From Branchiostoma lanceolatum (taxonomy: Eukaryota; Chordata; Leptocardii; Amphioxiformes; Branchiostomatidae), in assembly GCF_035083965.1 (NCBI RefSeq), contig NC_089724.1:6612501-6676500 (forward strand): a DNA stretch of 64,000 nt, written 5' to 3'. Made by a program: the position numbers and the translations under genes. Below are positions 11,901 through 54,600 of the stretch, piece by piece; positions within the stretch are counted from its first letter, which is position 1, and each line of letters starts with the position of its first letter. The notes beneath the pieces were generated by a model that was not told the DNA's origin, ran no database searches, and saw only the letters and a list, made by a program, of their open reading frames with translations.

Positions 11901-14900
11901 CTACTCTTCCGCAACCTACCGTTTACTAACGTAGCCATATATTTCCTCGGCTATTTTCAGAAGCTTACTTTGTGCTCCTTACCGTAAATTGTTCTCCCCC
12001 CTTCATGTACAGTATAGACATTTCCCGTCTTAAGTGTGTTTGGTGAACATGTAAGTAGACTCCACTCTGCATGGCTTACAGACAGTCTGGGCCTAATCTT
12101 GTTTCCTGTTTTGGCTAACTGTATATTTTTGCTGCTGGCAGAAGAGAGTGAGTATATTGAACGACCAGGCCATGTTGATTTGTTACCTCATGTTTTACAT
12201 ACTGGTAAAGTGCTTTTCTGTAGGACTTCCATCCCACCTTCTAGAATGTTCTTGTTGGCCCTTGTTGACATAACCCCTGGTGATATGGATAAACACTGCT
12301 TTGTGTAAACCGTGATATTCAAGTAAATGTAGCAAAAAGACAATCTATCCATCGCTTTCTTTATTGTGTTTCCCAAAAAGTTAGTATTGTACCAACTGTT
12401 ATATTGACTATTGTGGCATGAGAACATTCTAGGTATGGCCATGGTTGCCTTACTTCTGTATGCGCATCTCTTATTGCACATGAAATATTTTTCTTTTCTG
12501 CATACTTATTATACTTATTCTGTGCCACTTGGTGTAAAACTTGCAGGCGGTTTTCCTCCTTGAGTCAGTTCTCCACACGCACCACATGAGTCGTTGAAAG
12601 TTCTCCATGTACCTTCTGTGGGCGCCAGGCGTGCGACACGCTCCCTGATCGGCACTCGCCAATCAGCGTAGTCTACATCATGTGATCGGCGCTGAGCCAA
12701 TCAGCATACAGTTGTCGCCACGCTCATGATCAGCTAGCCAATCCCAGCATGTGTTCTCCTCCCACACATCCACCAATCCGATAAAGTCGACCATCGGCCA
12801 TTCAGAAAACGGCTCGCTCTCAAGTCAGTTTCGGCTCAGCCGTCGACACATTCGGCCCTTGTGTGAGAGCCCGAGTTGATCAACCTACTCACCCAGCCTA
12901 CATTCTACCATACCGTTGATTATGTGTGAGATTCGTCCGACACTCTGCACTGTGCAGTGTTACGACAGTAGATTCGACTCCAGTAAACCAGGTGCCATAT
13001 ACTGTCTGTAGTTAAGTTTGCTGCAGTTAGGGTAGGTATGTACTGCTCCACCTCCCATCTTACACAGCGCTAAGAACTTAAACTATAGTCAGTAGCTTTG
13101 AAAACAATTTTTTACTCTAAAAAAAGCAAGATCATTCAACATTTTCTGACATTTTTTATAAATTTTACGAAATGCTGTTTTACGTACAATGAACGCCTTC
13201 TTTTCTTCCTTTTTTCCCTTTTTTATATAAAAAGAGGAAAAGAGTATTTTTTTGCTGTGAGGATGGGAGGTGGTGATATGCTATGAAAAGATTGCTTGTC
13301 CCTGCAGTACTGAATGTTGTGGAAGTTTTGTACAGCTACAATTTACAGCGATGACAGGGAGCACTTTTGTTTGGACTTATTTGAGCCTAACTCTTGTGTG
13401 GTCCAAAGATGCTAAAGAAATCTCATTGTAATTTTGGCCTGATATACCACAAGCTTAAGCATTGTAACCAACAAGGTGTTTACCTTCACTGCATCCAATG
13501 TTATGCATTGTTGTACACAAGGGGGTTTCCTTGCTACAGTAAATACTACTCATATTAGCAAAACTTTGTCTTCCTTTTTGGAAAAATATGCTGTCCAAAA
13601 AGTTACTAGTTGCCTTTTTAAATGATCTGCATTCTTTTTCTGAATCTCTTAATTTTTAAATGATCTGCATTCTTTTTCTGAATCTCTTAATTTTCTCTTT
13701 GATTTGATGAAGAATTCTCAGGATGAATTTCAAGCATCTCCAAGCATTAAGATGTGATAAAAATGCTTGTTCCACAGCTGTACCTAACAGTTCATAACTA
13801 CAACTCTTTGACCAGAAACTCTTTCTAAAAATTGTTCTCATAATATCTGTCTTCCTTGACTTGGAACTATCCACCTAAACGACTTCTTCCTTTCAATCAC
13901 TGATAAAATTGTGTCATCTGGTTCTATCTTCGGTCTCCTCACTAAATCTTGTCACAAGGCCCTTTGGGGTAAGACTAGGCTACTCATAATTCTCTTCACT
14001 GTTGACACTGTTGACCAAATCTTGTTTCAATGGGTCTTACTAAACATTGCGTAGTCATGACAGCATTCAAGTTCATGCAGTGGCCAAATGATACAAAACA
14101 TGTACTTTACTGTGTTGATAATTAACGTCGAATTAGTTAGTGGAAATCGGTTTTATGTATAAAGACAGACGTAAATGTTGCTTTTGACTCCCTCGTAAGC
14201 TACTGCAGGTCCCATGGAAGAAGCCAGGCCCAGAAAGGTTGACAATGTCATGCGAATGTTGCACGCCACTAGCCCAGTCCAATCTGACGGTTTCTGTGTC
14301 TGTATCCTCGACAGGAGCCGTTCTCGGAGCCGCGACGGTTCTCGTAGCCGTGACCGTCGCCGCCGCACGCGTTCCCGCTCCAGGTCCCGCAGCCGCGACC
14401 GCAGGAGGAGCTACAGTCGGAGCCGGTCCCGCTCGCCCTCCCGCTCCCGCAGTCGGAGCCGCAGCAGGTCCCGCCGCAGCAGGTCCCGCAGTCACACACC
14501 ACGCAGCAGGTGGGCAGTATTGTTGTGTTTCACCACATTTGTGGATAGGGTACTGCAGGGGTTTTGCTAGAAAAATTAAACAAGAGGGAGCATACACAGG
14601 CAAGGGAGCAAAGTTATATGTTTTTATGGAAGAATTACTGAGGGAAGGCTGTATGCTGGGGATTAAGCTAAAATCTGAATTTGACAAGGGGGCGCTGGGC
14701 TGAAACAAGAGGGCGCAGCGCCCCTCTTTCCCGATTTAGATGAACCCCTGGTACTTTTATTCTTGTTTATTTCACTGTGACTTTGTCTGGTTTTCATATT
14801 CACCCCTGTACCGTGAATTTGTCATCACCGTTAAAAACCTGTTGTAATTATTTATGATTCCTTCACACATCCGTTCTGTAAATCACTTGCCGCCACGGTA

Positions 14901-25429: not shown

Positions 25430-28400
25430 ATGTCCCACTGGAGAGACACCGGTCCCATCGACTGCAAAGTGTACGTCGGCGACCTGGGTCAGTCCGGCAC
25501 CAAGCACGAGCTGGAGCGTGCGTTCAGCGCATTCGGACCCCTTCGAAATGTCTGGGTTGCTCGTAACCCGCCAGGCTTTGCGTTCGTGGAGTTCGATGAC
25601 CCACGGGATGCGAGGGACGCTGTGGATGCAATGGACGGGCGGTAAGGCTGACATCATCCAGCAGATATAACTGCTTTCTCTTCTCTGCAGATCTAGACCC
25701 TTAACATTAGATCAACATTATGGAGAAATTAAACTGCCGGTATCTGCCAAGTTGGCAGATACCGGCAGTTTAATTTCTCCATAATGTTGATCGGACCAGA
25801 ATTTTCAAATGAATCGCTGAGTCAGTCCTCTTCAGCTGTCTGACCCATGATCACTCTGGACATCTATGCACATGTAATGTAAGCATGCTTGGGTCAAAGG
25901 TTGTTGAAAGTTGATATTGTCCCCCATCCCTGTTCAGAGAATAGATTAAGATATTATCTTTTAAAACTGTCTAAACCTGTTACAATAGACTGCAAAACAT
26001 TCTCCATGCCCTTAAAAAATAGATTAGGAAGTTCTCTCTGAAGATCAAACCATCAGCAGGCAATTGTAAGTCTTTGCACAGGCCTCAAAACTGAGGCAGA
26101 CTTGACTTGTATTACTTTCCAAGCAGAAGTTGGTGGAGAAGATTGTAAGCGTTTTGTCATATGCCCTGTTTTCTGTCCACACTCTCCACCAATGAGAGTA
26201 CAAGTGCATATGACAAAAAGCTCACGATCTTCTCCACCAACCTCTACTTGGAGCGTAGACATGCGTATGCAAATCATGATGTAAATCTTTTTTGGAGTCA
26301 CCGCCATTCTATTTCCCAGTTATCTCTGCGGCCGCCGTGTGCGAGTGGAGCTGTCTCACGGGATGAAGCGTTCATCTCGATACCGTCCGCCACCTCCGAA
26401 CAGTTACCGTGGTTACGACCGTCCACAGCGCCGCCGTTCAAGGTGACCTCAATCATGTTTGAATAGCAAAAGCATTTAGCGAATCAACATCAATCACCTG
26501 CAGTGCTTATAGACCAATCTAGTTTGCTTTGTTATGAAGGATATATTGGAGTCTTTTTTTTAAATGATTTTGGTCTTCTCTTTTCATAGACATCAGAGTA
26601 TGCAATGCATGCATGTGCCTTTACTCGTTTGTAAATAGAAATTAAAGATTTGACTGTTGAAATGTCACTTGTGAGTGACAAAACAAATTAGTTGAATGGT
26701 TACGAATGTAGTATTTAGACAGAATCTGAAGGTTATCAATGATTTCAGTTTGTCACTGAGCTTAATGTCAAGTTTTAAGTCTAGTCAAAATCCTTGCCTA
26801 AAAATTACAAAAAGTGCTGAAAATATTTCCTCATTTTTCAATTGCCTAGTCAAAATCAGCCATGGAATTGCATGATTATGATAATGATGATAATGAGTTT
26901 TTATTTAAAGAACATTTTGCAGACCAAAAGCTGAATTACATGTTCTGTACATTAAAACAAAGTAAATTAGTATAAAGACTACTAAAGTGCTACATTTTGT
27001 GATTTTCGTGGAGACTCCAGAAAATTCCTTCATGGAATAATTTGAATGGAACAAACCAAAGTTTACTCATCCATGTTACTGTTAGTTTGTGTTCATACAA
27101 AGTTATTAAAAACAAAATGCATGTAAGAACCTCCTTGATGCATGTGACAGAATTGATGATTAAGAAGCAGAATCAGAACCACATTATTTTGTTATGCTTC
27201 ATATCAAGTCTTGAAGTCACATTATGACGCAAGGGAATTTCTGGTGAAGGTGGTTGAATGTGCTGTAGATGCCAATGGTAATGTAATTATAAAGGTGTGT
27301 CAAATGAGGGTGTAATGTTATGTGGAGTCCAGTGCTTTAAAATAATGGTGCAAGCATGTTAGATGCTCTGATGCAGTGTATCTGTGATGTCAAAAGGTAC
27401 TTGTTTTTTTAAGTCTTTTTCCGATCAATTTTTCGTCTGGTTTTCTATAGTCTAGAATCCTCGATATTAACTGTCCCAACAAAACCCCCTTACAGAGTGG
27501 CCATCTTGCTTCTCCACCCCATCAGACTACATTAGCCAATCAGCTCAGCCCTTGGCAAGTCACGTGACCGTCGCCATCCAATCAGCATTACCTGTCACCT
27601 CAACTACACCTTCAGCCCCTCCACCCAGCATGCCTTGCTGCAGCCCTTCTGGCCAATCACAAAACAGCACCCGACCTCAGGCACAAAGAAATCATCACAC
27701 CTTCTACGTACAGCGCGGCCAGTCCTATACAGTCTCAAAAACACGACAATTGTGCTCTTCCGTCCCTACAACCAACCAATCTCCAATGAGGATCACCCCT
27801 CATCGATTGCAAGTTCGCAACCCCCTTGATGAAATCTCACCTTTACTTCAGCGTCTTTACAAAAAAAACAGAAACGTCTACCGTACTACAAGTACAAGCC
27901 AAACTACAAAAAAAGCAAGCTTCACCTACTGTCTGCAACACCCACCTTCCCCGCCACATTTGAGCCGTCTGTCTACCACCAAAAAAAAGAGACGGGTTTC
28001 CACGACAACTTGTCATTGGACGATGCTGTTATGACCTCAATGCCTCATCTTTCGACCACCCTCCGCCCGACTTAACAACCCTGCCGCCTTTCTACTTTCA
28101 GCCTCTTGGGCCGGTGTAGGTTATCTGTTCTTGTCTCTAGACTAGTCTGTAGTTAGACACACATAGTTACTGCCACTGCAACTTGGGATAGATGCCATTA
28201 TTATTATCATGACACCCTCCTCTATTATAAGCACTGGGTCGAATCACTCGGCAACAAAGCCTCCAGCATCGACCCTGCTATTCTGGTCCAATGTTTTAGG
28301 TATTGGTGACGTCACCACCAACAGCTATCAGCCAATCAGAGGATTGCCACAAGCTCGTCTTGTGGAAATCCGCAAAGGTTGCTGGGAAGCAATCAGCCAA

Positions 28401-31400
28401 TCAGGATAGGTCTCACATTGCTACTTTGGGTTCAGAACAAAATAACGGCTGTTTGTGCCAAATAAGGCTAGCTCATTAATTATTCATGACCAACTGTCAG
28501 TAACGTCACCAATACCTTAAAAACCTTGGGTCAGAAGAGCAGGGTTGATGCTGGAGGCTTTCTTGCCGAGCGACTCGGCCCTGCTAGAGGAGGGTGTATC
28601 ATGATAACCTGTCTGACTGTTGACTGAAATACTTACAAAATGTATTTCAGACTTTAAAATTCAACATTGGTGAGGATATTTTTCGTCTCAGTCTCAAGTT
28701 TGTGGCAGCTAACTATATGTGTCGGGTCGTGTGTGAAAATCTGAAGGAATGCTTGATTGATTGATTGATTGATTGATTTATTGATAACATGATTTTGTTA
28801 ACACAATCTCTTGCAAATACTTATTGCTAATCAATATGAATCAATGATTTTGCTCTAACAGAAATCCCCTGCAGTGTATGTGGATGTCCTGACACTTGGC
28901 TGCATGAAGGCTGAAAAATTAACAATTTCTTTGTTTTCTCTGTACTGAAGTATATTGTGATAGATTTAGGTGGATTTGTAGGCTCCACGGTGTTTTCAAC
29001 AGTTATGTTTTCTGTGCTAAGATTTGTAATGATATAAATAAGAAAGCTACAGCATACATGTACATTAATTTTGTAACATGTTTTTTGTCTATGCTGTCTT
29101 GAAATCTGTGTGGCATATACCATACAGTCACATCAACTTAACTATTTTCCTTGAGCAACACTTCTGGTAAAAGCTTGTTGTGATCAGATTGTTTTACACA
29201 GTATTACACTGTTAAATACAGCATTTAACATAAAAACCTAACAGCCACACAAGTCACACAGCTATCTAGGTTACCTATCACATAATTACTGTGATTACAA
29301 TAGGAGTGGTTCAACTACATCATTACTAGAACCTGTGGCACATTTCAAGTGATCTAAGGACAAACTACAACCTACCATGCAAATGTTTTAGCAGGAATCT
29401 GTCTCATATTAAAGGGACATTACATAGTGCCTCATATAGTCCATTGGATTATGAGGAAAATACAGGAGAATTGTACATGTAAGCCATAGGGAAAACTTGT
29501 CTCATTGTTCGGTCACTGACAAATTGGATGGATCCTTTGCCTATGCATATCTCTGACCCCTCATGTGAACCGAAAATGTCAAACTACCATCAAACACGCC
29601 TGACTTAGTTATTGGAGCAAAGTATTGGCAGTGATTCAAATATCTACCACGAAAGCAACACTGTAAAATTGAAAACCGGTTGATTTTGCTAGCTATATGT
29701 TCTGCATTTCTTTAAAGTATCAGCCATTGCAAGTTTGGGCGTACCATTTGCAAGTTGAGGTTTTCAAGGGCACAATTCTTTCACAGTAAGGAATTTGGAC
29801 CTAAAAATGGATAAATGCACAACTGAATGTTTATCCTAAGTTGTATAGAGTGCAACTCATTACTTTCATATTTATTATGATTTGTTTTGAGAAAGTGTCT
29901 AAAGAGAGATGTAAAATCCTCATGTCCATCAGGCAGTTACAACGCACAGACTGGTGAGGCTGTGCTGTTCCTACATACTCTGGGCTTCGAACCCAGGACT
30001 CCCAACTACAAACTTTCGTCTTTAACTGAGAATGTCGTTCCGAACAGGTCCTTGTCTCCGTACCGGCGAGGGTTCTACAGTCGCAGCCCGGGCAGCAGGT
30101 AGTACTGAGCATGCCCGTTTTTGTGTTTGCAGTTTGACAGCCAATCACAGTACAGTGTTGCTGAGTAGATTAAAGTAAATTAAAGTTGCCATGTCATGTG
30201 GGAGACTTGTCATTTAGGGAATATTTTCCAGTTTCTTCCATTTTGACAGCCAATTACAGTACAGTGTTGCTGAGTGAATTAAAGTTGCCATGTTTATGTG
30301 GGAGACTTGTCATTCAGGGGATAGACTGTCCAGTTTCTTCCATGTAAGAAAAACTGTGATTTCCATACATGCTTCAATACAGATCTGAAAGGTCTATGAT
30401 TTTGGCCAGTCCCACAAAGTATGAAAGTTGCAATTTCAAATGATAATATCAAACCAAACAACCTGATTTTTAAGTGAACATTCCAAACAACTAAATGATT
30501 GTCAAGTTGAGAAAGTTTCCAAATCTCAGACTAATGACATGGCAGCTTTTATATATAACAGGTGATGGCAGTTTGGGTGTACTGATTTCACTCATGATGA
30601 TCATTTTCTAAATCTTATATCTAATTCAAGTCAGTAGGGAAAACTCTTCCTTAAATTTGGTTAACACACCCTAACATAATGTTTTGTTCAGTTTTCTGTA
30701 ATATTTTTTACCGCATTCATGTTCAGAGTTCATTTCTCATCTGTTTGTTGCTTTCCATGTTGATTTGAACTTAAACTTATTGAAAACAACCTTTCTTAAC
30801 ATCAGCCTTGTAACATGACATAATTGTCTATATGCCTGTAACATGAGCTTTACTAACACTTGTTCTGGGGTTGAAGGAAAGCATTTTGAAAATATCATAA
30901 TTCCTTGTTGATTAACAAATTGAATTTCAGCTGGATGCTGCAGTACAGACTTCTTAACTACCTCTCTTTCAGCCTGTAGTAACACAACAATTTAGTGACT
31001 TCTTTGTTTTTGTCGTGTCCAGGTCGCCGCGTGACAGACGGCGGAGCCGATCACGCTCGCGATCCAGAGACAGGAAACATTCGAGGTCTCACTCTCATTC
31101 ACGCAGGTAATGGTCTACTTTTGTCTAGCCTCTGTTAGAACACTTAACTGTTCGGTCCCAAAATCATGACACAACTAGATTAACTTTCGAAAAATTACAT
31201 CATTGAAGATAATATAGATCTTCTTGAACATTGACTGAGTGTTTTTCGCTTTAACATATACATGTAAAGCCAAGGTTGCTCAACTAGCAGGTAGGTATTA
31301 TTAAGAGCTAACTTTGGGGAAAAATACAATGATTATTAATAAGTTACACAATCAACAAGTTACTAGCTGAAAAATATATTCCTATTTACATCATATCGTA

Positions 31401-32730: not shown

Positions 32731-34399
32731 AAGGTTGAAGATTACACAGGGCCATCTCTGGCTTCAATGTTTTTTGTCCCTCACATGCAAAATTATCGTT
32801 GTTAAATCTGCCATTTTAAGGTTACAGAGACACATTTTTTTATCAATTTGATGTCATACAGTTAAGATTTTGGGGATTTAAGGGGTAACTTTTTTTGTCC
32901 ATCCCAGCAAGCAAGTTTGCATCCTGGGACGGAGAGACTAAAAGCTAGTCCTAGACAGGTGTAGCATACTTTGTAGTGCTTGAAAGTAGCTGTTCAGAGC
33001 TATGGTATCGAAAGTTTTATTTTATTTTACAGTATGTATTCTATTTCTATTGGGATTAAGCCAGTATTGTTGGATCTTTGATGCACCCAACACCCGGACT
33101 AGGACGTTTATGTGCAGGACAAGTTCATTATATGTATAGTGCGGTAGAAAAAATGATTTAAAGTGTCCAGTATGATCGGAAGTTCTTATCATATTATGAA
33201 GCTAGCTTAGAAATCTATTGGAAACCATTATATTTCATTTGGTATTACTATATGCTACATATTAGCACTCATTATGATTTTCCTGTTGTAGTAGAATTAT
33301 ACGGCTCACACAGCCTTGAAGTCAACATGCTTCACTGTTAGTAAACTTTCCCACCTTTTGTTTTCATTAAAGACTGTTGACAAGTTTATGTATGAATAAG
33401 AAGTGAGTTGGTTGTGTGATTTCTCTTTAGAATTTGACAAATGCTCAGAAATTTGTTTTTTTCCTGTCAACTTTATCACAGTGAGGCAAACATATTCAAG
33501 AGAAAGCACTAATGTTACATGTGTATATCCTTGATGAATAGAACTTATAACAATCAATTTGGAATAATGTGCTTGGGATAACTAGTCTTCAATCAAAATC
33601 TTGTTGAATAAGAAAACTTTTAGTCATTCATTGTATCACTAAAGCTGTTCAACTTTAGAAATTGTATGATAACAGGTTGGTCAGGGTATTATTGTAACCC
33701 TCCATTCATTTTAAGTGTGGGGTAGTGTCGCCCGCAAGCATCCCCGTTTCAAACTGGAAATACTGAAAAGTTGGCACTGTAGATTCATGACAATGTAAGG
33801 GTTAAATTGGACGAAGAAAGGGCAAGATTAGGGCACACCAATTTGATTTGTTGGTACAAATGTACTCGGATTCACCTCTTCTATCTTTTCCCAAATCCAA
33901 AAATAATTCGCCACACCTCCTGGTCCCATTCAGGAAATTGTTACTCAGTATAGAGCCATTCAACAACTAAACAGAAGGGCCAGGAAAGCCCGGCTTCAAC
34001 AGAAATGATGATCCCATGTAGACTTGCCCTACTCTATCGAGTGGCTGTCAACACATACATCCAATATAGCAAAATGCCCTAAATGTCTTTATTCAGTTTT
34101 TGTCTGCGGATGTTTTTATATTCAAAGTTAATGTTTTTTCATGAATGAAAGAAGTACATGAAAACTGTAGTTACCAAAGTACTTTTAATATTTTCAACAA
34201 ACAGGTGCATCTACTGTGCAATGGGAGTACCGGGATGAGTTGGATGTCAAACTGAAACCTGTATAATCATTTTGTTCGTTATCATTTTGCCAAAATAATT
34301 TCGCCCTTTCCATCTATATTTTCTCCGAGAACCAACAAATTAAATTGGTGTGGCCTAATGGAGAAAAGCGTGAGAAAGACTCGAACACCCCTCGCAGTT
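32731..34399. other. Region between genes B and C
   Basis: AT-rich. Contains one dispersed repeat at about 32838-32960 (TTTTTTTGTCCATCCCAGC, CATCCTGGGACGGAG). I see no gene and no strong signal elsewhere in this stretch. Confidence 0.5.
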
Positions 34400-34514
34400 T
34401 TCCATGGACCGGTCCTGATCCACGTGACTTCCCACCATACGTTGCGCGTGCGCAGTGCTGTCGGCTTGGGTAGCCATCTTCCCGGTGGTTCTGTGATCTG
34501 TGCTAGCCCTCGAG
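34400..34514 (+). promoter_or_regulatory. Promoter and non-coding first exon of gene C
   Basis: Contains an E-box CACGTGAC (34421-34428), a palindromic NRF1-type site TGCGCGTGCGCA (34443-34454), and GCCATCTT (34473-34480). The first exon ends at the donor CGAG|GTGAGTTA (34515). The block is about 85-90% identical by eye to the gene D promoter. Confidence 0.75.
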
Positions 34515-37257
34515 GTGAGTTATATACATGTTTTCTCACATTTTCTCCTCAGAAAACTCACCTCCTTCGCTCCTACACAACTGCAGCTATTCCAACTAAC
34601 ACCTGTGAGCTTCTGAGTTGTCTCAAATTTAAGATTGGGCGTGAAATTGTGGCGTTAGCGTCTGGCGTGCTTTCGACTCTCTGGTTACAAAGAATTTCTT
34701 CACGTTGCCCAGACAGCTCGACTACGGTTAATTTTTGTTGCTTGCGGCAAAACATGGCTTGGTTTGCACATGGTTTCACAGTTGTCTTCATGTTCTGGTG
34801 ATCTTAGTGTATTTCTTTCCTTGTGTACAATCCTGTAACGATCTTCTACCTTTGCGGTGAGGTGATTTCTTAAATCCATTCTCAAGTTACCGTGGAACGC
34901 TTTGGGGTTCCAAGGTGGCAGGGGGGGGGGGGTGATAATTACTAAATTACATAATCAGCATCACACCTTGAGACGATTCGAGGACAGGTTTCTATTGTAC
35001 AAGACAAAGAAGGGGATGAGCAATTATCACGCTGAAATTAATGGATTTATAACACATGATAAATCCATACTATTATTTAGAGCTTATTTATTTTATCACC
35101 GCCATGTGCTTTAATAAACAAACTGTTTTTTTAGTAACAGCAGCTTTTAGCTTGGCCAGAAACTGTTCCAACAAATTCTGTTGAACCACCTGAATTTTTT
35201 ATTATCTACGAATATGTTTAAATTACTCCCACGGGATTGGGCATTGGGTAATATGATGTCGATGCAGCTTGCAAAATCTACATCAGTGATACCCCCAAAT
35301 AACCTCACCAGGGGCGAAGTAGGGGGGAGTTGAGGTCCCGGGCTAGGGCGGGCAGGCCTCCAGCCAGGCACAGAACGACTCAATGGTGGGATCTGTCACA
35401 ACCTTGAGGGCATTCCACTGGGGAATGATACAATTATTCCAGATTGTGCACTCGCCTTAATTTTACAGAAAGGGACGGCTATTCATGCATACTAAATGTT
35501 TTACTATTTGAATGAAATGAATTACTGTCGGACAGGACTACATGGAGGATCCTCTGGCCTGAGTACGTAGGCAGTAGGCAGAATTACTGTCCATGCAATT
35601 GTTACTGGAGGTCTGGTGCCACACAAATGTCTGGCAGACTGTAATACTTGGCAGAAAGTCAGCCAAGGCCACTTTGTAGATTGATTGGTATTCTGTATGG
35701 GTCCCTGACACAGTACGGTTAGGCTGCCAAAAGCCACATGTCAATCTGAGGGAAATGCCATATTAAGGATATCAACAAACAAGAAGCAGAGAATAGTAAC
35801 TCATGACCACGTCTAGCAAAGAAATAGACATTACTGTAAATGCATTTAAGTTTGCATGGTTTCAACTTCGCGGTTGGGAGAAAATAAAGTGTTTGCTGTG
35901 GTTTTAAGTTCGCGTTTGACTTTGAGATAATTGTAAACAAGGGGGTACGAGGGCAAAAACATCAGGCTAGAATGATAACAAGTTTGACAGAGGTAGATTT
36001 TTATACACCCGATTGGCAAAATCTATGTGCCAAAGAAGCACCACCCATATTCAAAGTGGATAATAATTGACATTAGCCATTTCTAAATTGTGCGTTTTGG
36101 TGTGTTTGTAGGTCAGCCTTTATGTAACAGGTAGCTCAAATGTAACATGTGGAAGTCATACCTGATCCAGACACAAATCCAGTTGTTGGTAGCTAAGCAG
36201 GTGTCTCTCATTGTTCTGTATGGGGGCCTTTGTTCTCACTGTGGCATAACCTGGCCTGGGATCAAGGTCTTCAACGTGAGTAGTTACCGAACAATCCAAA
36301 CAGAATAATCGGTCTTTCTATTAGTAATTGGTTGCCATTTACCGGTTCCCGCCTAGTTTAGACCGAAAAGCGTGGCCTTGAGTCAGTTGTTTGTCTTCTT
36401 TGAGTTTGGGTAGTACATAGGCAAAAACATTGGTTTCATTAACACTCTAGTCTGAAAGCATTGAGAGTTCTCCTGTAGAAGTGATAGTGCAGAGTGCACA
36501 GTGTATTTGAGACGATGAGGAAAGGTACATATGTTTTGAGTGTGTATAGAAATGATGGTGCACTGTGTATTTTAGTGAGAAGTTTTCTGCTGTCCTGATT
36601 TCTTTTGTTTCAACTGTCATATTCTAAGTACATTACCTTCCTCTTGTAGATTTTTCCTGTATAATTCTCCTTGGTCTTCGTTATAGACTCAGAATACTTG
36701 CTATTTTTTCTGGCTTGTGATAGGTGTTTCAAGAGCAAATATAGAATGCTACATTTGAATAGTTATTACAGTAATGTTGCCAGCTTGTTGAATACACATG
36801 GAATTGTTTACAGACGGCGTTTCTCTTCTGTTTGCTCTGATACCCTGTCAGTCAGTCTTTGTTCTCCCCGATACACCATGCTTATGTATTCTTACTTGTA
36901 CATTTCCCCCCGCATGCACTGTAGGTCCAAGAAGCAGCTACAAGATGTCACATAGTTCGTAGTACCCTTCTGTTATTTTTCTCTTGTACTGTTGTAGATT
37001 TACCCATATAATTCTCATCGGTCTTTGTCATTGACTCATGATACTTGCTATTGTTTAAAGAGCAAATATAGTATGCTCCATTTAATAGTTATTGAGTATG
37101 TTGCCAACTTGTTGAATACACATATGGAATTGTTAACAGATGTTTCTGTCGGTTTTCCCCTTATCTTATTAGTCGATACATGTCTTTGTTCTTTCCTGTA
37201 GTACAGTTCACTGTACCTGCATCCAAACTTGTACATATCCCCCCGCATGTTCTGTAG
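34515..37257 (+). other. Intron 1 of gene C (5' UTR intron)
   Basis: Holds the empty sites that correspond to two transposon insertions in gene D (near 34665 and 34885), a degenerate MITE at 35831-35945 (ATTACTGTAAATGC, TTTTAAGTTCGCG), and a tandem duplication next to exon 2 (36640-37257). Nothing else is recognised. Confidence 0.65.
36640..36960 (+). repeat. Tandem copy of the exon 2 upstream region with a decoy 3' splice site and 5-codon ORF (gene C)
   Basis: The unit repeats at 36960-37290, where the real exon lies. The decoy reads CATGCACTGTAG|GTCCAAGAAGCAG and then ATG TCA CAT AGT TCG TAG, that is MSHSS and stop, against the true CATGTTCTGTAG|GTCCAAGAAGGAG with MSHRRD. If used as an exon it would add an upstream start and stop. 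Confidence 0.75.
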
Positions 37258-37277
37258 GTCCAAGAAGGAGCAACAGC

Positions 37278-40200
37278 ATGTCGCATCGCAGAGATGCCGG
37301 TCCGATTGACTGCAAAGTTTACGTGGGTGACCTGGGTCAGTCCGGTACCAAGCACGAGTTGGAGCGTGCGTTCGGCGCCTTTGGACCGCTGAGGAACGTC
37401 TGGGTTGCCCGCAACCCGGCGGGATTCGCTTTCGTAGAGTTTGAAGATCCACGCGACGCAAGGGATGCCGTTGACTCGCTAGACGGACGGTAAGATTGTT
37501 GCTGCATTGAACATCTGTTGTTTCGAGCCATTTCGTAGTCCTACTGTTAACGTTGTATGTAGGATATAGCATTGAAATTTCCATAGCAGTGTCTGTCTGT
37601 TAATAGAGAATTTACAGGATTTGGAAGAGACGTAACAGATTTACACAAAAAAGACAAAGGGGGTTGGTAAAACATGTTTTCCTTATTCCTTGTGGACTTC
37701 TATTTATCTTAAACTAACAAAATTGCCTTGCTTAGACTCGTGCTAACACCACCTGTTTCTGTCGTGCTCCAGGTATATCTGTGGTCGTCGCGTCCTAGTC
37801 GAGTTGTCTCACGGTAAGAAGCGCTCGTCTCGATACCGTCCAGCGGCCCCGCCCAGTTACCGCGGCGGTGGCAGCAGCAATTACGATTACCCACAGCGCC
37901 GGCGATCACGGTGAGCCTCCGACTTCGTTCTGTATACAATGTGTGCAAGCGTTGCTTTTGTATATATTTGTGTACCTTTCTGAAAGTGTTTTCACAAGAT
38001 GTGCTATTTTTTTAAATAATCACTCTTATGTCATAGTAAACGTGAGTTCTTGTGTTTTTCTTGAAGGACAAGTAAACAATTACAGTGAGGAGCAACGTTG
38101 TGTGCCTCCACTAAACCATGTAAAGGTCAAAACTGCTATGGTGATGCTTGCCCATGTAAACCTCCAAAGAATGTTAAGAGAATAATTGGTTTGGCGTAGA
38201 TTATCCAGTCTATCGATGCGTGCCAAATTTTGTTTCACACTTCTGGCAAATTCATTTTTATCTTAATTGTGCCTTTTTATGTTCAAGCCACTTAATGCAT
38301 GATTTATTTTCTTACCAAGATTGTCTTAAAATATTTAAATCAAAAATTTTCTGGTTAAAATGATCTTACTACGTCGGGCCAATGCAAGCACCATACATTT
38401 ACCAGTGTGTTTATAGTGTTTGTATGTAAAATTCTCTGTCTTAGTAACTTAGTCAGCACATCTGTGACTTCAGTAGAAGTAATTTAATGTCTTTCTCTGG
38501 GTAAGACCAGTAGTTGGTGATGCTTGGTGATTTATGGGCAGGTTTTCTATAGAATCCTCGATTATTAACTGTCCCAACAAAACCCCTTACAGAGTGGCCA
38601 TCTTGCTTCTCCACCCCATCAGACTACATTAGCCAATCAGCTCAGCCCTTGGCAAGTCACATGACCGTCGCCATCCAATCAGCATTACCTGTCACCTCAA
38701 CTACACCTTCAGCCCCTCCACCCAGCATGCCTTGCTGCAGTCCTTCTCGGCTAATCACAAAACAGCACAAAGAAAGCGCCAGTCCCACCTTCTACAGCGC
38801 GGCCTCCTATACAGTCACAAAGCTCTTCTGCTCTCCAGCCCCTCCAACCACCAAACTCCGATAAGGACCGCCTTTCGTCGCAAGCCCCTTAGACCAACCC
38901 ACGTCCTTACACCGGCGTCTTTAAACAAAAGATACAACCACTACCAGCCAAGCGACCAAAAATGTCGCCGCCTTCTCCGTCTACTGTCAGCAACACCCAC
39001 CTTCCCCACCACATTTGAGCCACGTCTGTCTACTACCTCCGCTAAAAAAACATCCGGGGATTTCCACGACAACTTGTCATTGGACGATGCTGTTTGGCTC
39101 CTCCACATCTTTCGACCAACCTTCCAATACCGCCTCGCCCGACTTAACAACCCTGCCGCCTTTCTACTTTCAGCCTCTTGGGCCGGTGTAGGTTATCTGT
39201 TCTTGTCTCTAGACTTAGTCTGTAGTTAGACACACATAGTTACTGCAACTTGAGAAACACAGCCAGAATGGCGTTTCATTGTTTACAGGAAAAGCAATCA
39301 TGCATCCCAGATTGACTTTTTTGTCAACATATAGGGCTGGTATGAATTGCTTTCACTGTCTCAAGTTTGTGGCAGTTAAACATGTGTTTGATCATGCGTG
39401 CAACTCCGAAAAAAGTATTCTGCTAAAAAGTCTTGGAAGAACTCACTGCTAAAAAAAAAAAGTTTGAGTTGTCTGATACAAGAATAGAGCTCTTTTGCAG
39501 TGTCGAAGGGATAGCTGTAATGTGCTGTAATGTAAGTTCCTGACGTATAGCTGCATGAAGGCTAAAAAAAACTAACACTCTCTTGATTGTTTTTTTACTT
39601 CTATCGATGTTTGTTATGCCACAGTTTGTTGTAGCATAGCAAGACATCATTTTGCCATATTTTTCTGCTTTGAATTTACAGACACTGCTTATTCTTCTTA
39701 CTTACTCTCTCAAAATATGTCTGCAAAAAATTGCATATTAGATCAGTTAGTAGTGCGGGAATTTTCTGACATGGGTTTGTACCAGATAAAACATATTTAA
39801 CACGAGTCCAAATCAAAATATCCGCTTTCTAACAGTATCTTAAGTAACTGTCTGAGTCTCCATGCTTTTTATACTTGGTTGAGCAGTTTAAAACATGCAC
39901 TGAGTGGAACTATGGTATTGTTCAATGGTTTTGTCTGCCTAAAGACATTTAACTGACAGGAAAACTTGTTCAGTCGGAGACAGACTACCAAATTGAATTT
40001 TATGATGATTGTTGAAGCAATTTATGTTGAGAAGTTCGTAACTCTTGACCTAGATGATGTGTGGTTTGTACGTCTCAGAGATAGTCCGTGGTGATGACTT
40101 GCCAGTGCTGTGGCTCTGGGAATCGAACCCAGGATGTCGACTCGAGCTGATGATGAGTATTTATTTCCAAAACAGGTCCTTCTCGCCAGCGCCGCGCCGC

Positions 40201-42370
40201 CGTCAGTCCAGTCGCAGCCGCAGCAGGTAGTACTGAACCCGTACATGTTTGTTTGCAGTTTGACAACCAATCACAAGACAGTGTTTCGGACTAGAGCTGC
40301 CCTATCACCCACCTAGAAGCAGTATGTAGATATAACTCAATAGAAATTCCTGGGAATGCCATTGATCTGGAAAAGAAGTTGCACCCAAAAGTCACTCCCG
40401 TTCCCAAGTTTGCTACCTGGCTTATCCCGTTTTGTCCTCGATTCATTTTAATGCTTTTAAGCTGAGAGGCATGATGGGAAGTTTCTGTTTATTTCACTTC
40501 TGTCGTGACAAGGCAGCTTTTACGTCCAACCTTCTGACTGCACTGACCCAAGTCTCACATTCGTGCCTCAAGGCTTGAAACGCAGAGTTACTCCATACTG
40601 TCAGTGGATGGGGTGGACGTGCATAAGGATTCACACACCCGGCACCTTTCATCTTAAAGTTTAACACCGCTTTTCTTCGTGTTGTATTTTTTTGCTGCCA
40701 CTCCCCTTTCATTTTGAAGACTTTTAATGACCTGATACTCTTACATGGGATATCTCCCATTCAAAAGAGCAGAATTTGTTTTGGTCTGTTAGAGAAAACT
40801 TTGTCATTTAACAAGCCTGATACTACTACACTTCGGCTTTAATTTCTAAAGGCCTTCTAAATTTGACATTCATCTACTGGTTGGAACCAGTGTTCAATTC
40901 AAGCTAAGTCTATATGATAAGCCTTGACGTATGAAATATAATTGGACACGATGCGTGATTCTTCTGAGCAACCTAATCTAACATCACTTCTAGGATATGG
41001 TTGGGATTTGAAGGTTTTGGTGTGTTGGTTTTCTTTTAACCTTGTATTTCAGCTGGGTGACAGGAGCCATTTTGCAGACTCTGTCTTCTGCTTGTCGATA
41101 GGGCAAAACTCAGTGTTGTCGTTTTTATCTGGTCCGTGTACGCAGGTCTCCCCGTGACAGGTCCCCGAGGGACAGGTCACCACGCGACAGCAGACGCAGG
41201 AGCCGCTCCCGCTCTCGTTCCCGCGACAGGAAGCACTCCAGGTCTCGTTCCCGGGATCGCAGGTGAGCTGTCGTTGTTTATTTGTGTCACCACCCAGAAA
41301 TATGCATTTAATAACTCTATTGCAAGTTCATGCTTGAAGGCTAATTGCAGACAAACAAGTACATGGATATACATGGGAATTGACATAGTTATCAAGTCTA
41401 CTCTGAAAGTTCTATGTTAACTAAGGTTGGGATATTGGTGTTAACAAGCACATTACATCAAACACAAAACTTACAGAAGACATCCTGTGACATTCAGAAT
41501 GAGATTGCTACTGGAACATCTGAGATAGTCAATTTATTTGTTGATTTCCAAAACTTTTTATTGTGCATTAAGTCAAGTTGATTTGATTATATGGATGACA
41601 TCTTCCGTTTACCACAAAACTTATGCAAGCGTGCTAATTAAAAAGATTGCCTTTATTACGAAATGTATGTGGTCAGAAAGGATGAACAAAACTTAACACC
41701 CAGAGTATGATATACCGAAATATAGATTCTTCATTTTTGTTCTTACAAAAGTTCTTCTATGACTTTGGTATTCTACGACATTAGTATCCGTTTTCCGAAA
41801 TATTTTTTGCAATTTACAGCAAAGATTTTCTCACTTTGCAGCTGCTTTTTTAGATGAACTGTTAACTCTTTTGTTGGAAAGGGACAAAAATATTTCATAT
41901 TTATCCGCGTGCGGATGTCATTCATATGATCAAATCGACTGGGCCTTGGAATTTTTATTGATTCAAAATGACTGGTAGTTATTGTATAAACTGGAGCGTC
42001 TGTGGTGGTTTTAAGTTTGCGGCAGCGCTACAGTCACATACTGCTGGAGTATTGGACAAAAATGTTAGCGGCTGGTTTAAGTTTGCGTTGAAACGGTCGT
42101 TGCGAAAACCACAAACATAAAGCTACCGCGAACATTTCTGCATTTACAGTATCTTGTGACATTCAGAATGAGATAACTGCTAGAACATCTGAGATAGTCC
42201 AATTTATTTGTTACTTTCGAAAACTTTTTATTGTGTATCACATGACCCAAAATGATTGGTAACAGTTTTTTTTATGTGAACTTAAAATGGATTTTTTGTT
42301 TCCCTTGATCAGTCGCTCAGTCTCACCACTCAATAAGAGTCCACGAGGCAAGAGTCCAGGAGACGACTAG
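37278..42370 (+). CDS. SRSF3: SRSF3-type SR splicing factor, gene C
   Basis: Five coding exons: 37278-37489, 37773-37910, 40176-40226, 41146-41262, 42313-42370; all phase 2; 191 aa. The exon with the ATG starts at 37258 (TTCTGTAG|GTCC). The RRM (residues about 10-80) has KVYVGDL and GFAFVEF; one change from gene B is NPAGF for NPPGF. The Gly-rich linker has [13 protein letters not shown]. The RS domain has three RDRSP-type repeats ([14 protein letters not shown]), and the end is [10 protein letters not shown]. No zinc knuckle. By family it acts in splicing and mRNA export. The RRM exon product is identical in all residues to that of gene D. A poison-exon candidate is at 38593-39191. Confidence 0.92.
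38593..39191 (+). other. Conserved poison-exon candidate in gene C
   Basis: About 599 nt, homologous to 27496-28119 and 52945-53544. The acceptor CCCCTTACAG and the first 40 bases match gene B exactly; the stop TAG falls at 38630-38632, 13 codons in, after joining to exon 3. CACGTGAC of gene B is CATGACC-like here (CACATGAC), while both CCAATCAGC words are kept. A 165-codon open frame inside is not shared with gene B and is taken as chance. Confidence 0.65.
40114..40133 (-). repeat. tRNA T-arm-like relic upstream of exon 4, gene C
   Basis: CTGGG-AATCGAA-CCCAG hairpin; on the minus strand a B-box-like GGTTCGATTCC. It ends 43 bases from the exon 4 start. Confidence 0.6.
41985..42152. repeat. 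MITE-like repeat, GTTCGCGGT/TTTAAGTTTGC family
   Basis: GGTGGTTTTAAGTTTGCGG at the left, and GCGAACATTTCTGCATTTAC followed by AGTA at the right. In the last intron of gene C and absent at the same place in D, where the intron runs through differently. Confidence 0.7.
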
Positions 42371-43885
42371 ATCCACCTGGTGCCACGCTTCAGGGTGACC
42401 TCTGACCCACCAGCCTTCCCACAATCCACCGAGGGCCCTGAATGGCACAAACTACTCGTAATGTTAACGTCTGGAGTCAGTCTTTTTATCCGTTCCAACC
42501 CTAGCAGTGACGTATACAAATTTGTTTTTTTTTACCTTTATTTTAGCTGTGTAAGTGAAAACTCAATGGGACCTTTTTGTGTTAGGGCTTCTGTTGTAGG
42601 AGTAGCTTGAAGGTATACGTCATACGATGCAAAAATGTAGACGATCCATTGCTATACATGTCAAGAAGATCTTTTGCTTGTAGCTTACTGTTTGTGTTGT
42701 AAGTGACAATACCCCAGTTTGTTTTTGTATCCAGGAGTCTGCATATATTTTGTTTGTAGGTGAAGACATCAAAAGTTTTTGTGCGGTTAACTTTGGGATA
42801 GAACAACATAATTCAAATTCAATTGTAATTGCCCTGAATGTACTTTGCATTGTTGTGTGAGATATTTTTATGTACTGCCTGTTATCTGTGTCGCTCTTTG
42901 GAATTTTTCTTCTAAAAAAATTCACCATTTAGTCAGCATATGAATAGATGCATTGCAAAATCCTCATTAGACTTTGTCTTGTCACTCACCAAACTATAGT
43001 CGTGTTGTTATTTCTACGTGATTTTATGCTTACGTTCCAACCATGAACCTGCGTGTGATTGTGCCAACATGGGTGCCTCTGGAGTAGGTGTGTCAGGGAT
43101 TCTCACCATTCATATAGAGTCTTAGCAGTTTACAACAGTCTGTCACAAGTGTGGTGCACACTATAAAGATATTCTCATCACTTGGTTCTGTGATTTGCAG
43201 AGCTAGAAAGGTAAATGGGGGAGGAAATGGAATACTGCTGTATAATAATGTTTAATAGCTCAAATATCACATAGATCATGTGGTCTTGAAATATAGTAAT
43301 TCCATTGCTTCCTGTAACTTGGTCCTTAATAGCTGTCTAAAATGCTGCTATTGTCATCAGTAACAAAGCAATGTTTTATTGTTGTTTTCATGCCACAGTT
43401 GCAAAGTCTTATACTTTTCTGGAGAGGACAAAAAGTTCTCTGACTAAATCATTGAACTGGTATGGTGTCACAGTCCCTGACACACCTTTGCAGAGGCAAG
43501 AACAGTCAGTGAAAAGGCTTGCTTGTGTACATGTGCATATTGTGACACTATTTTGATAATCAGTGGTGAGTTCAGGTCAAGGTTCAGGAACAGTAATTTG
43601 GTTAATGATGTTGACGATTGTATATTCCATGATTGTATAATGATTAGTATCACCAATAATTGTACTCATAGCCATGGTGGGGCTTTAAGAAATAACAAGT
43701 TTTACCTCCCCCCTGTGATGGTCTAGTTTACACACTAGATCTAATTGGTTGGGGCCTAAATCAGTAAGGGGAAAGGTTACGTTTGTTGTTAAAATTGAAA
43801 GTAGTAGTCCACCAAAGAGAGGAACCCTACCATTGCTTGTATTGTCAATGTATCTTTGGAGAAAATAAAAGTTATTACATTTCTA
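42371..43885 (+). other. 3' UTR of gene C
   Basis: AATAAA at 43864 within GGAGAAAATAAAAGTT. The same signal is at the same relative place in gene D, so the 3' UTR is about 1.5 kb in both. Conserved with the D 3' UTR along its whole length. Confidence 0.65.
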
Positions 43886-44849: not shown

Positions 44850-45015
44850 CTAGCCTAATGGCGAAAAGTCTGATAATAACTGGAACACCCCTCGAAGTTT
44901 TCCATGGACCGGTCCTGATCCGTGTGACGTCCCACCTTGCGGTGCGCGTGCGCAGTGGTGTCGGCCTGGGAGGCCATCTTCCCGACGGTTCTGTGATCTG
45001 TTTACGTCCCGCAAG
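44850..45015 (+). promoter_or_regulatory. Promoter and non-coding first exon of gene D
   Basis: Copy of the gene C promoter: NRF1-type TGCGCGTGCGCA (44943-44954), GCCATCTT (44973-44980), donor CAAG|GTGAGTTA at 45016. In place of the C gene's E-box there is a CRE-like TGACGTC (44925-44931). Confidence 0.75.
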
Positions 45016-45170
45016 GTGAGTTATAAACATGTTTCCACCACAATTACCTCACCAAACTCACATTCTTCGCTCCTACACAATTGTAGCTATTCAAACTAAG
45101 ACCTGTGCACTTCTAAGTAGTCACAAATCTGGGTTTGGACGTGAAATTGTGGCGTTTAGCGTCTGGTGTT

Positions 45171-46724: not shown

Positions 46725-46951
46725 ACTGGCATGCTTTCGACTCTCTGGTTACAAAGAATTTCTTCACGTTGCCCAGACAGCTCGACTACGGTTAATTTTT
46801 GTTGCTTACGGCAAAAAATGGCTTAAGTTTGCACATAATTTCACAGTTTTCATAATATATTGGTGATCTTAGTGTATTTCTTTCCTTTAAAGTAACGATA
46901 TTCTACCTTCACTGTGAGGCTGATTTCTAAAATCCATTCTCAAGTTACTGT

Positions 46952-47796: not shown

Positions 47797-47805
47797 AGTT
47801 ACTGT

Positions 47806-51675: not shown

Positions 51676-54600
51676 ATGTCGCATCGCAGAGATGCCGGTC
51701 CGATCGACTGCAAAGTCTACGTGGGTGACCTGGGTCAGTCTGGTACCAAGCACGAGTTGGAGCGGGCGTTCGGCGCCTTCGGCCCGCTGAGGAACGTCTG
51801 GGTTGCCCGCAACCCGGCGGGATTCGCTTTCGTAGAGTTTGAAGATCCACGCGACGCGAGAGATGCTGTTGACTCACTAGACGGACGGTAAGCTTGCTGG
51901 GATTCGAACGTCTGCTGTTTCAAGCAGTTCTTTTATGTTGTACATATGTAGGATATAGCATAAAAAAATCCATGGCAGTGAGGATTTTTGTTAATAGAGA
52001 ATTTATAGGATTTGGAAGAGACTGGGATCAAGAGGTACTGTAAATGCATGTTTGCATGGTTTTAATTTTGCGAAAGGTAGAAAATGAAGTGTTTGCCTTG
52101 CTTAGACACAAGCTAACACGACCCATTTCTGTCGTGCTCCAGGTATATCTGCGGCCGTCGCGTTCTAGTCGAGATGTCTCACGGTAAGAAGCGCTCGTCT
52201 CGATACCGTCCAGCACCCCCGCCCAGTTACCGCGGCGGCGGCGGTTACGATTACCCACAGCGCCGGCGATCACGGTGAGCCTCCAACTTCATTCTGTATA
52301 CCGACTAACCGATGTGTGCAAATGTTGCTTTTATATATATATTTGTGTATCTGTACCTTTCTGAAAGTGTTTTTACAAGATGTGCTATTTTTTTTATGTA
52401 ATCTCTCTTTATGTCATAGTAGACGTGAGTACTTTTCTTGAAGGACAAGTAAACAATTACTGTGAGAAGCAACATTGTGTGCCTCCAGTAAACCATGTAA
52501 AGGTCAAAACTGCTATGGTGTCATGCTTGCCCATGTAAACCTCCAAAGAATGTGACGAGAATAATTGGTTTGGCATAGATTATCCAGTCTATCCATGCAT
52601 GCCAAATTTTGTTTCACACTTCACTAAAATTCCTTTTTATCTTTTTATGTTTAAAACTAAGCGCTGGCATTCAGTTTTGTTGTTTTTACCCACTTAATGC
52701 AAGACTGTCTTGAATTAAAATACTTAAATCAAAAGTTTTCTAGGCCAAAGCAAGCACCATTTGCCAGTGTGTTTATAGTGTTTGTATGTAAAATTCTTGT
52801 CTTAGTAATGTAGTCAGCACATCTGTGACTTCAGTAGAAATAATTTCATGTCTTTCTCTGGGTAAGACCAGTAGTTGGTGATGCTTTGTGGGCAGGTTTT
52901 CTAGAATCCTCGATTATTAACTGTCCCAACAAAACCCCTTACAGAGTGGCCATCTTGCTTCTCCACCCCATCAGACTACATTAGCCAATCAGCTCAGCCC
53001 TTGGCAAGTCACATGACCGTCGCCATCCAATCAGCATTACCTGTCACCTCAACTACACCTTCAGCCCCTCCACCCAGCATGCCTTGCTGCAGCCCTTCTG
53101 GCCAATCACAAAACAGCACAAAGAAAGCGCCAGTCCCACCTTCTACAGCGCGGCCTCCTATACAGTCACAAAGCTCTTCTACTCTCCAGCCCCTCCAACC
53201 ACCAAACTCCGATAAGGATCGCCTTTCGTCGCAAGCCCCCTAGACCAACCCACGTCCTTACGCCGGCGTCTTTAAACAAAAGATACAACCACTACCAGCC
53301 AAACGACCAAAAATGTCGCCGCCTTCTCCGTCTACTGTCTGCAACACCCACCTTCCCCACCACATTTGAGCCACGTCCGTCTACTACCTCTGCAAAAAAC
53401 CCACCCGGGGGTTTCCACACGACAACTTGTCATTGGACGATGCTGTTTGGCTCCTCCACATCTTTCGACCAACCCTCCAATACCGCCTCGCCCGACTTAA
53501 CAACCCTGCCGCCTTTCTACTTTCAGCCTCTTGGGCCGGTGTAGGTTATCTGTTCTTGTCTCTAGACTTAGTATGTAGTTAGACACACATAGTTACTGCC
53601 ACTGCAACTTGAGAAACACAGCAGGTTTCACTGTTTCATTGAAAGCAATCATCCTAGATTGAGGTTTCGTCAACATATAGGGCTGGTATGAATTGCTTTC
53701 ACTGTCTCAAGTTTGTGGCAGTTTAACATATGTTTGATCATGCGTGCAAATCTGAAAAAAAGTATTCTGCTAAAAAGTCTTGGAAGAACTCACTGCTAAC
53801 AAAGAGAAACGTGATTCAACTTGTCTGATACAAGAATAGAGCTCTTTTGCAGTGTCGAAGGGATAGCTGTAATGTGCTGTAAGTTCCTGACATGTAGCTG
53901 CATGAAGGCTAAAAAAACTAACACTCTCTTGATTGCGTTTTATTTCCAAAGATGTTTACTGTGCCACAGTTTGTTGTAGCATACCAAGACATCATTTTGC
54001 CATATATTTCTGCTTTGAATTTACAGAAACTGCTTATTCTTCTTACCTTACTCTCTCAATTGTAGAATATTTCCATGTCTGCAAAAATTGCGTATTAGAT
54101 CAGATAGTAGTGCAGCAGTAATTTTCTGACATGGGTTTGCAGAGACTACCAGATTTAACATATGTAACATGAGTCCAAATCAAAATATCAGTTTTCTAAC
54201 GGTATCTGAAGTGACTGTCTTTTTCCTTTGTTGAGCAATTTAAAACATGCACTGAGTGGAACAATGGAATTGTTCAATGGTTTTGTCTGCCTAAAACTAA
54301 AAGACTGTTAGCTAGACATGAAAATTTGGCACAGCCAAAGACAAACTACCACATTGATTAATTTTATGAAAATTGTTTAAGCTATTTAAGATGACAATTT
54401 GATGGCAACTGTCTTGAAAAGTGTATCTTATTATAGAGGGTAGTACCTTAATTATAGGTGAAGGTAAGAAAAATATTTCTCAGAAATGGGGAAACTTAAT
54501 GTAGTAACCATCTTCATGATCACAATGTGATGGATGCCACGTCTTTTATGGAAATAAAGCTACTCACTAATTTTGTTGCCAGGACTAAGTAAAAACTTTT

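Follow-up and report, generated by a model that had tools for sequence, protein, structure and literature searches.

A candidate poison exon with frozen ends in three tandem SRSF3-type genes of Branchiostoma lanceolatum

A stretch of 64,000 nucleotides (nt) from Branchiostoma lanceolatum (GCF_035083965.1, NC_089724.1, 6,612,501-6,676,500, forward strand), referred to here as the window, contains genes for SR (serine/arginine-rich) splicing factors. Three of them, the tandem SRSF3-type genes B, C and D, contain, within the intron that follows the linker exon, a block of 599-624 nt that is very probably a poison cassette exon comparable to exon 4 of vertebrate SRSF3. Such an exon had been proposed in the initial annotation of this DNA, and the proposal is upheld by the equivalent intron and phase, an early stop, constraint on non-coding sequence, conserved flanks and a C-rich composition. 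The three predicted exons and the parts into which conservation divides the copy in gene B are as follows (plus strand throughout; a slash marks a splice junction).

27496..28119, plus strand: predicted poison exon in gene B, ending at 28113, 28115 or 28119, with its TAG at 27533-27535; from alignment, splice sites and frame
38593..39191, plus strand: 599-nt predicted poison exon in gene C, ending at 39185, 39187 or 39191; from alignment, splice sites and frame
52945..53544, plus strand: 600-nt predicted poison exon in gene D, ending at 53538, 53540 or 53544; from alignment, splice sites and frame
27436..27495, plus strand: conserved intron flank with a branch-point-like TATTAAC and the acceptor CCCCTTACAG; 52/54 (B-C) and 50/52 (B-D) aligned columns identical, with 7 and 9 gap columns in addition
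27496..27663, plus strand: ultra-conserved 5' part of the exon; 167/168 identical in B-D, 165/168 in B-C
28069..28119, plus strand: ultra-conserved 3' part of the exon, with a decoy-like 3' splice site CTTAAC..CCTTTCTACTTTCAG/CC (AG before 28102) and UUUCU; 51/51 positions identical in every pairing, acceptor scoring 9.4 in each gene
28120..28186, plus strand: conserved downstream intron flank with the CU-rich tract TCTGTTCTTGTCTCTAG; 65/67 (B-D) and 60/61 (B-C) aligned columns identical

Conserved exon ends in three tandem genes

In the initial annotation, genes B, C and D had been described as sharing a conserved block of 600-625 nt, biased on the plus strand towards C and A and against G. 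The block, its intron and its composition (C 0.35-0.39, A 0.24-0.28, G 0.15, T 0.21-0.22, with C 2.4-2.6 times as frequent as G) are as described, whereas its conservation is far from uniform. Overall identity by blastn is 76.7% for B-C, 77.3% for B-D and 96.8% for C-D, and the middle of the exon (27664-27990) retains 210/278 identical positions between B and D (75.5%), with a further 64 gap columns. The longest runs identical in all three genes measure 79 nt (28064-28142), 79 nt (27565-27643), 78 nt (27486-27563) and 30 nt (28001-28030). The conserved region exceeds the block, extending over about 27428-28188 in B, 38530-39250 in C and 52900-53614 in D, with some 60 nt of intron kept on either side.

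The RRM-coding exon served as a yardstick, with exon limits off by 1-3 nt; between B and C/D it is 80.0% identical, with agreement at 12/32 (B-D) and 13/32 (B-C) fourfold sites. At the 20% divergence of this exon, the single difference among the 168 sites of the 5' part in B-D has a binomial probability of about 2e-15, sites being assumed independent. The exon ends are thus 98-100% identical between B and C/D, against 80% for the RRM exon, and the middle falls below the coding level; non-coding sequence appears to be conserved at or above the coding level at the ends of the exon and not in its middle. The conserved unit seems to consist of two ultra-conserved ends, their flanks and a 30-nt core (28001-28030), rather than of one uniform block. 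Because both exon ends and their flanks are frozen and the middle is not, selection on splicing would be the best explanation of this pattern.

Beyond the block, comparison of the rest of the intron between B and C/D (E up to 1) yielded eight matches of 17-56 nt. Short conserved islands lie downstream of the block in the same intron, at 28691-28745 and 28887-28931 in B and at 53704-53756 and 53885-53930 in D, and the 18-mer GTCTCAAGTTTGTGGCAG, which forms part of them, occurs at 28691, 39358 and 53704. No further copy of the block was found in the window by blastn (E up to 1e-3), and a profile search with the B/C/D block gave no match above threshold other than these blocks themselves and did not recover gene A.

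The host genes were delimited with exact GT/AG sites, giving productive frames of 175 (B), 191 (C) and 189 (D) amino acids (aa), each ending in an RS-rich tail. In gene B, the exons that matter here are the following.

25430..25641, plus strand: first coding exon (RRM), start set at the ATG; GT donor, open frame, PDB match to SRSF3, Pfam RRM_1
26320..26442, plus strand: linker exon, ending in phase 2 at AAG/GTGACC; exact frame, donor score 7.9
30048..30098, plus strand: next coding exon, start of the RS domain; AG/GT sites, open frame

The closest solved structure to gene B is SRSF3 (E 2.5e-38 in PDB), with SRSF7 next among distinct molecules (E 9.8e-35), a gap that is not decisive given that the SRSF7 chain is shorter. 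In a Pfam scan covering A, B and C, RRM_1 was the sole match in B and in the N-terminal part of C, and a CCHC knuckle was found in A only; the peptides used for Pfam and PDB were joined by eye, some of them short of the junction residue, that of A without its first residues and that of C without the RS part. Gene B therefore looks SRSF3-like, with a single RRM, no zinc knuckle and an RS tail, whereas gene A, which starts at 8999, combines an RRM with a CCHC knuckle and is SRSF7-like. Intron 1 of gene B contains a near-perfect, hairpin-forming inverted repeat at about 25710-25792.

The block had also been said to be kept in all three copies. It is present in B, C and D, but these are not three independent cases: the RRM exons of C and D are 95.3% identical, with agreement at 31/38 fourfold sites, and the two genes appear to be young duplicates, such that the three copies come nearer to two independent witnesses and the comparison is mainly one of B with C/D. 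The regions 34062-43957 and 44521-59177, comprising genes C and D with their upstream sequences, resemble a segmental duplication broken by repeats. A self-complementary stretch at 46951-47797 (about 850 bp at 90%) adjoins an array of tandem and inverted repeats at 45392-46535.

Reading frame, splice sites and sequence signals

When the block is joined to the linker exon in phase 2, the transcripts of B, C and D all read through an identical 13 codons into the same TAG, as initially annotated and now confirmed with exact splice sites. The truncated proteins would measure 124 (B), 129 (C) and 127 (D) aa. The same TAG is reached with any of the three right edges and also from an inner acceptor at 27526, in all three genes. 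It lies 553-584 nt before the end of the exon in the nine forms examined and 713-728 nt before the last junction. Nonsense-mediated decay (NMD) acts on stops located more than 50-55 nt before a later junction, and the position of the TAG is that of a predicted NMD trigger by this rule. An early stop is, however, expected of any non-coding insert, and the weight of the argument is carried by its conserved context rather than by the stop itself.

The exon shows no coding signature, since substitutions between B and D are spread evenly over the three positions modulo 3 (26/191, 24/190 and 32/190) and its gaps break the frame (6, 2, 7, 2 and 12 in B; 14, 2, 6, 1, 11, 15 and 4 in D; 8/12 not multiples of 3). 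Gene B alone has an open reading frame (ORF) of 134 codons, from 27630, the counterparts of which stop after 45 codons in C and 54 in D. In gene B, whichever of the three donors is taken, none of the six ATGs in the exon opens a frame that extends into the RS exons. C and D have four ATGs each; with the donor after 39187 or 53540 (GGT/GTAGGT), an ATG in the conserved core opens an ORF of 108 aa, in which 34 new residues precede the complete RS part, read in frame. With the donor after 39185/53538 the frame is 53 aa long and lacks the RS reading, and with the outermost donor there is no such frame. With B lacking this second ORF and C and D being near-identical, it would count as one weak observation. 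Two hypothetical products of this part of the exon are listed here.

39087..39187 (C) and 53440..53540 (D), plus strand: where a second ORF of 108 aa, continuing into the RS exons, could begin in C with the donor after 39187, and likewise in D from 53440; frame check, absent in B, hypothetical
28102..28119, plus strand: possible 18-nt in-frame microexon, if the acceptor before 28102 were used; frame check in B, C and D, hypothetical

Splice sites were scored with a general consensus matrix rather than with a trained model. The acceptor at the left edge (27496), with the conserved branch-point-like TATTAAC some 25 nt upstream, scores 4.6 in B and 2.0 in the other two genes; it is outscored by the acceptor at 27526, 30 nt further in, which reaches 8.6 in all three genes. 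At the right edge, CCGGTGTAGGTTATC contains three conserved overlapping GTs, after 28113, 28115 and 28119, scoring 3.2, 3.6 and 1.0, where the linker donors of the three genes reach 7.9-9.9. Duplex energies with U1 draw a less unequal picture, with -7.3, -6.1 and -4.0 kcal/mol for the three right-edge donors and -6.6 (B) or -8.3 (C and D) for the linker donor, such that two of the three pair with U1 about as well as the linker donor of B. The donor cluster is flanked on both sides by tracts resembling 3' splice sites (28102-28141), the same in B, C and D: CTTAACAACCCTGCCGCCTTTCTACTTTCAG, inside the exon and 18 nt before the outermost donor, scores 9.4 as an acceptor, and TCTGTTCTTGTCTCTAG, ending 21 nt after the donor, scores 8.4, both being identical in the three genes. 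These high scores are partly a by-product of the C/T-rich, G-poor sequence. The inner tract contains UUUCU, the core of the human exon 4 silencer. The position of UUUCU and of the CU tract is suggestive of a parallel with the human and mouse elements, a five-letter match proving nothing in itself.

The composition of the block may suit it to binding by an SRSF3-type protein. The RRM of human SRSF3 contacts four nucleotides and specifically recognizes only a 5' C, according to a review (PMC10321290), and CNNC sites were counted partly for this reason. The blocks contain 100 (B), 114 (C) and 116 (D) such sites, against a maximum of 80 among 600-nt windows taken every 50 nt outside the blocks on both strands; the excess over mononucleotide shuffles corresponds to z 3.9-4.7, and 80/100 sites of B are conserved in B, C and D. 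GAAG-type motifs are absent from the blocks. Premature polyadenylation was considered and rejected, with no AATAAA or ATTAAA present in the blocks, in the 200 nt upstream of them or in the 300 nt downstream. The 64-kb window gave no Rfam match at gathering scores, and no relative was found in IMG/VR (scans with a 24-mer, a 23-mer and the RRM of B) or GTDB (24-mer), as expected for an animal gene.

A further motif is shared by the copies. The sequence CCAATCAG occurs 11 times on the plus strand of the window and once on the minus strand, and 8/11 plus-strand occurrences form pairs with CA[CT][AG]TGA between them, 38 nt apart in gene A and 42 nt apart in B, C and D. The cluster in gene B is as follows.

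27536..27586, plus strand: cluster CCAATCAGC - CACGTGA - CCAATCAGC, found by motif search, with counterparts in C, D and gene A

Just downstream of the block, gene B contains a transposon-like insert with terminal inverted repeats (about 28246-28598), which carries its own pair of CCAATCAG at 28332 and 28397, 65 nt apart.

Gene A and competing explanations

A candidate fourth poison exon is found in gene A, between the knuckle exon and the RS exon, in a C-rich intron stretch (12500-13110).

12547..13035 (or 13031), plus strand: candidate exon in the SRSF7-like gene A (with CCHC knuckle), 485-489 nt long, with 14 codons before the stop and with the donors AGG/GTAGGT and TAG/GTATGT; frame and splice-site checks

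The stop lies 442-446 nt before the end of the candidate exon. The donors score 8.1 and 7.4; the outer acceptor is weak (1.4), and an acceptor at 12565 (4.1) leads to the same stop. The alternative starts at 12565, 12569 and 12629 give stops after 8, 34 and 14 codons. CNNC frequency in this stretch is at the 99.0th percentile, with a C-over-G skew of just 0.16 and ordinary WCWWC. Local similarity to the start of the B exon scores 50, whereas the highest-scoring unrelated place in the window (2251-3000) has 47, and in 1000 shuffles the A region never reached 50; similarity to the start of the D exon scores 46, below that 47. Aligned overall with B, C and D, gene A gives 219 four-way identical columns, against a mean of 206 and a maximum of 225 in 40 shuffles of A, which were aligned with fewer refinement rounds than the real sequence. 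What gene A shares with the other three is mainly the CCAATCAG cluster, and common descent of its candidate exon with that of B, C and D is possible. The stretch 2251-3150 has a strong C-over-G skew and tandem CATCCCAACTTCCTTGCCTGT units; it is perhaps a minus-strand coding repeat and seems unrelated.

Several results weigh against the interpretation of the block as a poison exon bound by SRSF3-type proteins. The motif excess is largely a matter of base composition, WCWWC reaching z values of just 2.1-2.6, and a set of five SRSF3-like pentamers (CATCA, ATCAA, TCAAC, ACATC and TCATC) is not enriched in the blocks (z 0 to -0.8). The RNA of the B exon shows no excess of structure over 20 shuffles (z 0.17). 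The right-edge donors score low on the matrix, with three candidate GTs and none singled out. Three oligo-sized pieces of human exon 4, the only ones compared, match the block no better than shuffles (P 0.08-1.0). Finally, 3-5 CCAAT motifs per block, at the 98-99th percentile of the window, could be explained by a role of the DNA itself.

The last point leads to the possibility of an intronic promoter or enhancer, in which CCAAT boxes and the E-box-like CACGTGA would form a platform for transcription factors and perhaps start a shorter transcript. The pairing of CCAATCAG around CA[CT][AG]TGA fits such a platform, as does a CpG observed/expected ratio of 0.73-0.80 in the blocks and 0.89 in the gene A stretch, against 0.57 in the window, and the 108-aa RS frame opened by the block ATG of C and D with one donor choice could be used by a short transcript. 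It is nevertheless very improbable, given the strong strand asymmetry of the block, the plus-strand orientation of every in-block CCAATCAG (each block does have one ATTGG), a constraint that covers the acceptor region and the donor-like sites, and the failure of any ATG frame of B to reach the RS exons. That second ORF also bears on a coding role, either as an alternative isoform or as a Split-ORF transcript making an RRM half and an RS half as in human SRSF7, the poison-exon transcripts of which are said to be translated into two truncated proteins (review PMC12847704). The separate 134-codon ORF of B could be put on the same side. A coding role is the least probable of the explanations weighed here, since the second ORF is absent in B with any donor and in C and D depends on a single one of the three, these young duplicates coming nearer to one observation than to two, while the ORF of B is cut short in C and D, codon periodicity is lacking and indels break the frame.

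Two further explanations were weighed. Gene conversion among tandem copies, rather than selection, could keep them identical: the copies are in tandem, the neighbourhoods of C and D are duplicated, and identity between B and C/D falls sharply beyond the block. Conversion would, however, have to involve all three copies and require separate tracts at both ends and flanks that spare the 75% middle and the 80% RRM exon, which makes it decidedly improbable. A decoy or retention element in place of a true cassette exon is rather unlikely. In this case, a cluster of strong 3'-splice-site-like sequences with weak donors would stall splicing of the intron, and a retained or slowly spliced transcript would be the regulated one instead of an exon-included mRNA, or the 28102 acceptor would yield the 18-nt microexon, 28102-28119 being in frame in B, C and D. 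The acceptors at 27526, 27629, 28102 and 28141 score 8.4-9.4 in all three genes, against 3.6 or less for the conserved GTs, and one mouse paper terms the SRSF3 event intron 3 retention (PMC6163301). Retention would need no conserved right edge, yet 28064-28142 is identical in three genes; two of the three donors are near the linker donor of B by U1 pairing, gene A has two stronger donors (8.1 and 7.4) ending its C-rich stretch, and C-rich, G-poor sequence yields high acceptor scores easily.

Under the preferred poison-exon reading, the block would normally be skipped as a cassette exon. Its inclusion would give a protein made of the RRM and linker without the RS domain, a product defined by the reading frame, and the exon-included mRNA would presumably be destroyed by NMD; we infer both the splicing of the block and this decay from the sequence. 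When abundant, an SRSF3-type protein would bind the C-rich, G-poor exon and promote recognition of its splice sites, so that the gene would turn itself down. Because the exon ends are practically identical among the three genes, the protein of each would be expected to act on the transcripts of all; auto- and cross-regulation are proposed here on mammalian precedent. The UUUCU tract inside the 3' edge and the CU tract outside it are likely sites at which a PTB-like repressor and an antagonist would set the basal level.

Beyond the initial annotation, the analysis adds the frozen ends, the ambiguous right edge, a possible second ORF in C and D and a possible fourth member in gene A. If the block is spliced as predicted, the SRSF3 poison exon would reach back before the vertebrates, and the cluster would provide a natural experiment, with tandem copies in which synonymous sites have nearly reached saturation and the middle varies more freely while the exon ends are frozen. 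The parts that matter in a poison exon would then be both ends, the flanks and the 30-nt core, and the reason for the ultra-conservation of such exons would become testable.

Comparison with known systems

Exon 4 of human SRSF3 is 456 nt long, nearly identical across mammals and 91.92% identical to that of Latimeria, and its inclusion leads to a 124-aa product (PMC10321290). Close to its 3' end this exon contains a UUUCU silencer (oligo UCACCAUUUCUAGCUUG), to which PTBP1/2 bind, and the mRNA containing exon 4 is an NMD target (PMC4586487). In the mouse, the exonic UUUCU and a downstream intronic CU element oppose each other, the latter being an enhancer that acts through RBM4a (PMC6163301). 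The in vivo binding motif of SRSF3 is CU-rich and excludes G, and the protein binds the poison exons of its own gene and of SRSF7, the inclusion of which is raised in minigenes (Änkö et al., PMC3439968).

The predicted lancelet exon resembles vertebrate SRSF3 exon 4 in lying in the intron after the linker exon, in its phase 2, in its early in-frame stop and in being long and highly conserved; the phase of the human exon was taken from an exon 3/5 junction primer printed in PMC4586487 together with the human protein sequence. UUUCU near the 3' end and a CU tract downstream are common to both, as is a product of 124 aa in human and in gene B. The lancelet exon differs in its length (599-624 nt against 456 nt), in its divergent middle and in its presence in three tandem copies.

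Likeness to the poison exon of SRSF7 (9G8) is seen in gene A, itself SRSF7-like, with a C-rich candidate exon and an early stop in the intron next to the RS exons. Split-ORF transcripts of human SRSF7 have been described in reviews (PMC12847704, PMC12179342), and in C and D one of the donors would open a second ORF that covers the RS domain. However, this ORF sits in SRSF3-type genes and is missing in B, and the candidate of gene A, taken as a whole, aligns with the other three no better than shuffles.

Unproductive splicing of SRSF5, conserved between fungi and animals, has been reported in the lancelet from expressed sequence tags; the paper treats SRSF4/5/6 as a case study and names SRSF3 once in its text, in the introduction (Lareau and Brenner, PMC4379411). 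That system shares with the present one an SR gene, NMD-directed splicing and the lancelet, and differs in SR subfamily and intron. For B. floridae, 11 SR genes have been tabulated, nine of them with alternative splicing, and the word 'poison' is absent from the text (PMC3173450); amphioxus, Branchiostoma and SRSF3 are all absent from the text of PMC3556307. A literature search on SRSF3, poison exons and SR proteins in amphioxus or Branchiostoma returned no title on this exon among the matches listed, its scope leaving out most subscription papers.

A bolder reading, which is doubtful, would make the poison exon older than the split between SRSF3 and SRSF7 in chordates. Genes A-D would then all carry its descendants, with CCAATCAG-CA[CT][AG]TGA-CCAATCAG, and together form one shared dosage sensor, silenced through a built-in decoy 3' splice site at the 3' end of the exon. 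The human UUUCU silencer (oligo UCACCAUUUCUAGCUUG, which contains UUUCUAG) would be a remnant of this decoy, and C and D might make an RS-only protein from their second ORF.

Regulation across paralogues has a reported counterpart in Drosophila, where the paralogous SRp20-type genes Rbp1 and Rbp1-like are said to be auto- and cross-regulated in a negative feedback by unproductive splicing, as Kumar and Lopez reportedly found in 2005. That system reportedly makes use of an alternative 3' splice site, unlike the cassette exon predicted here.

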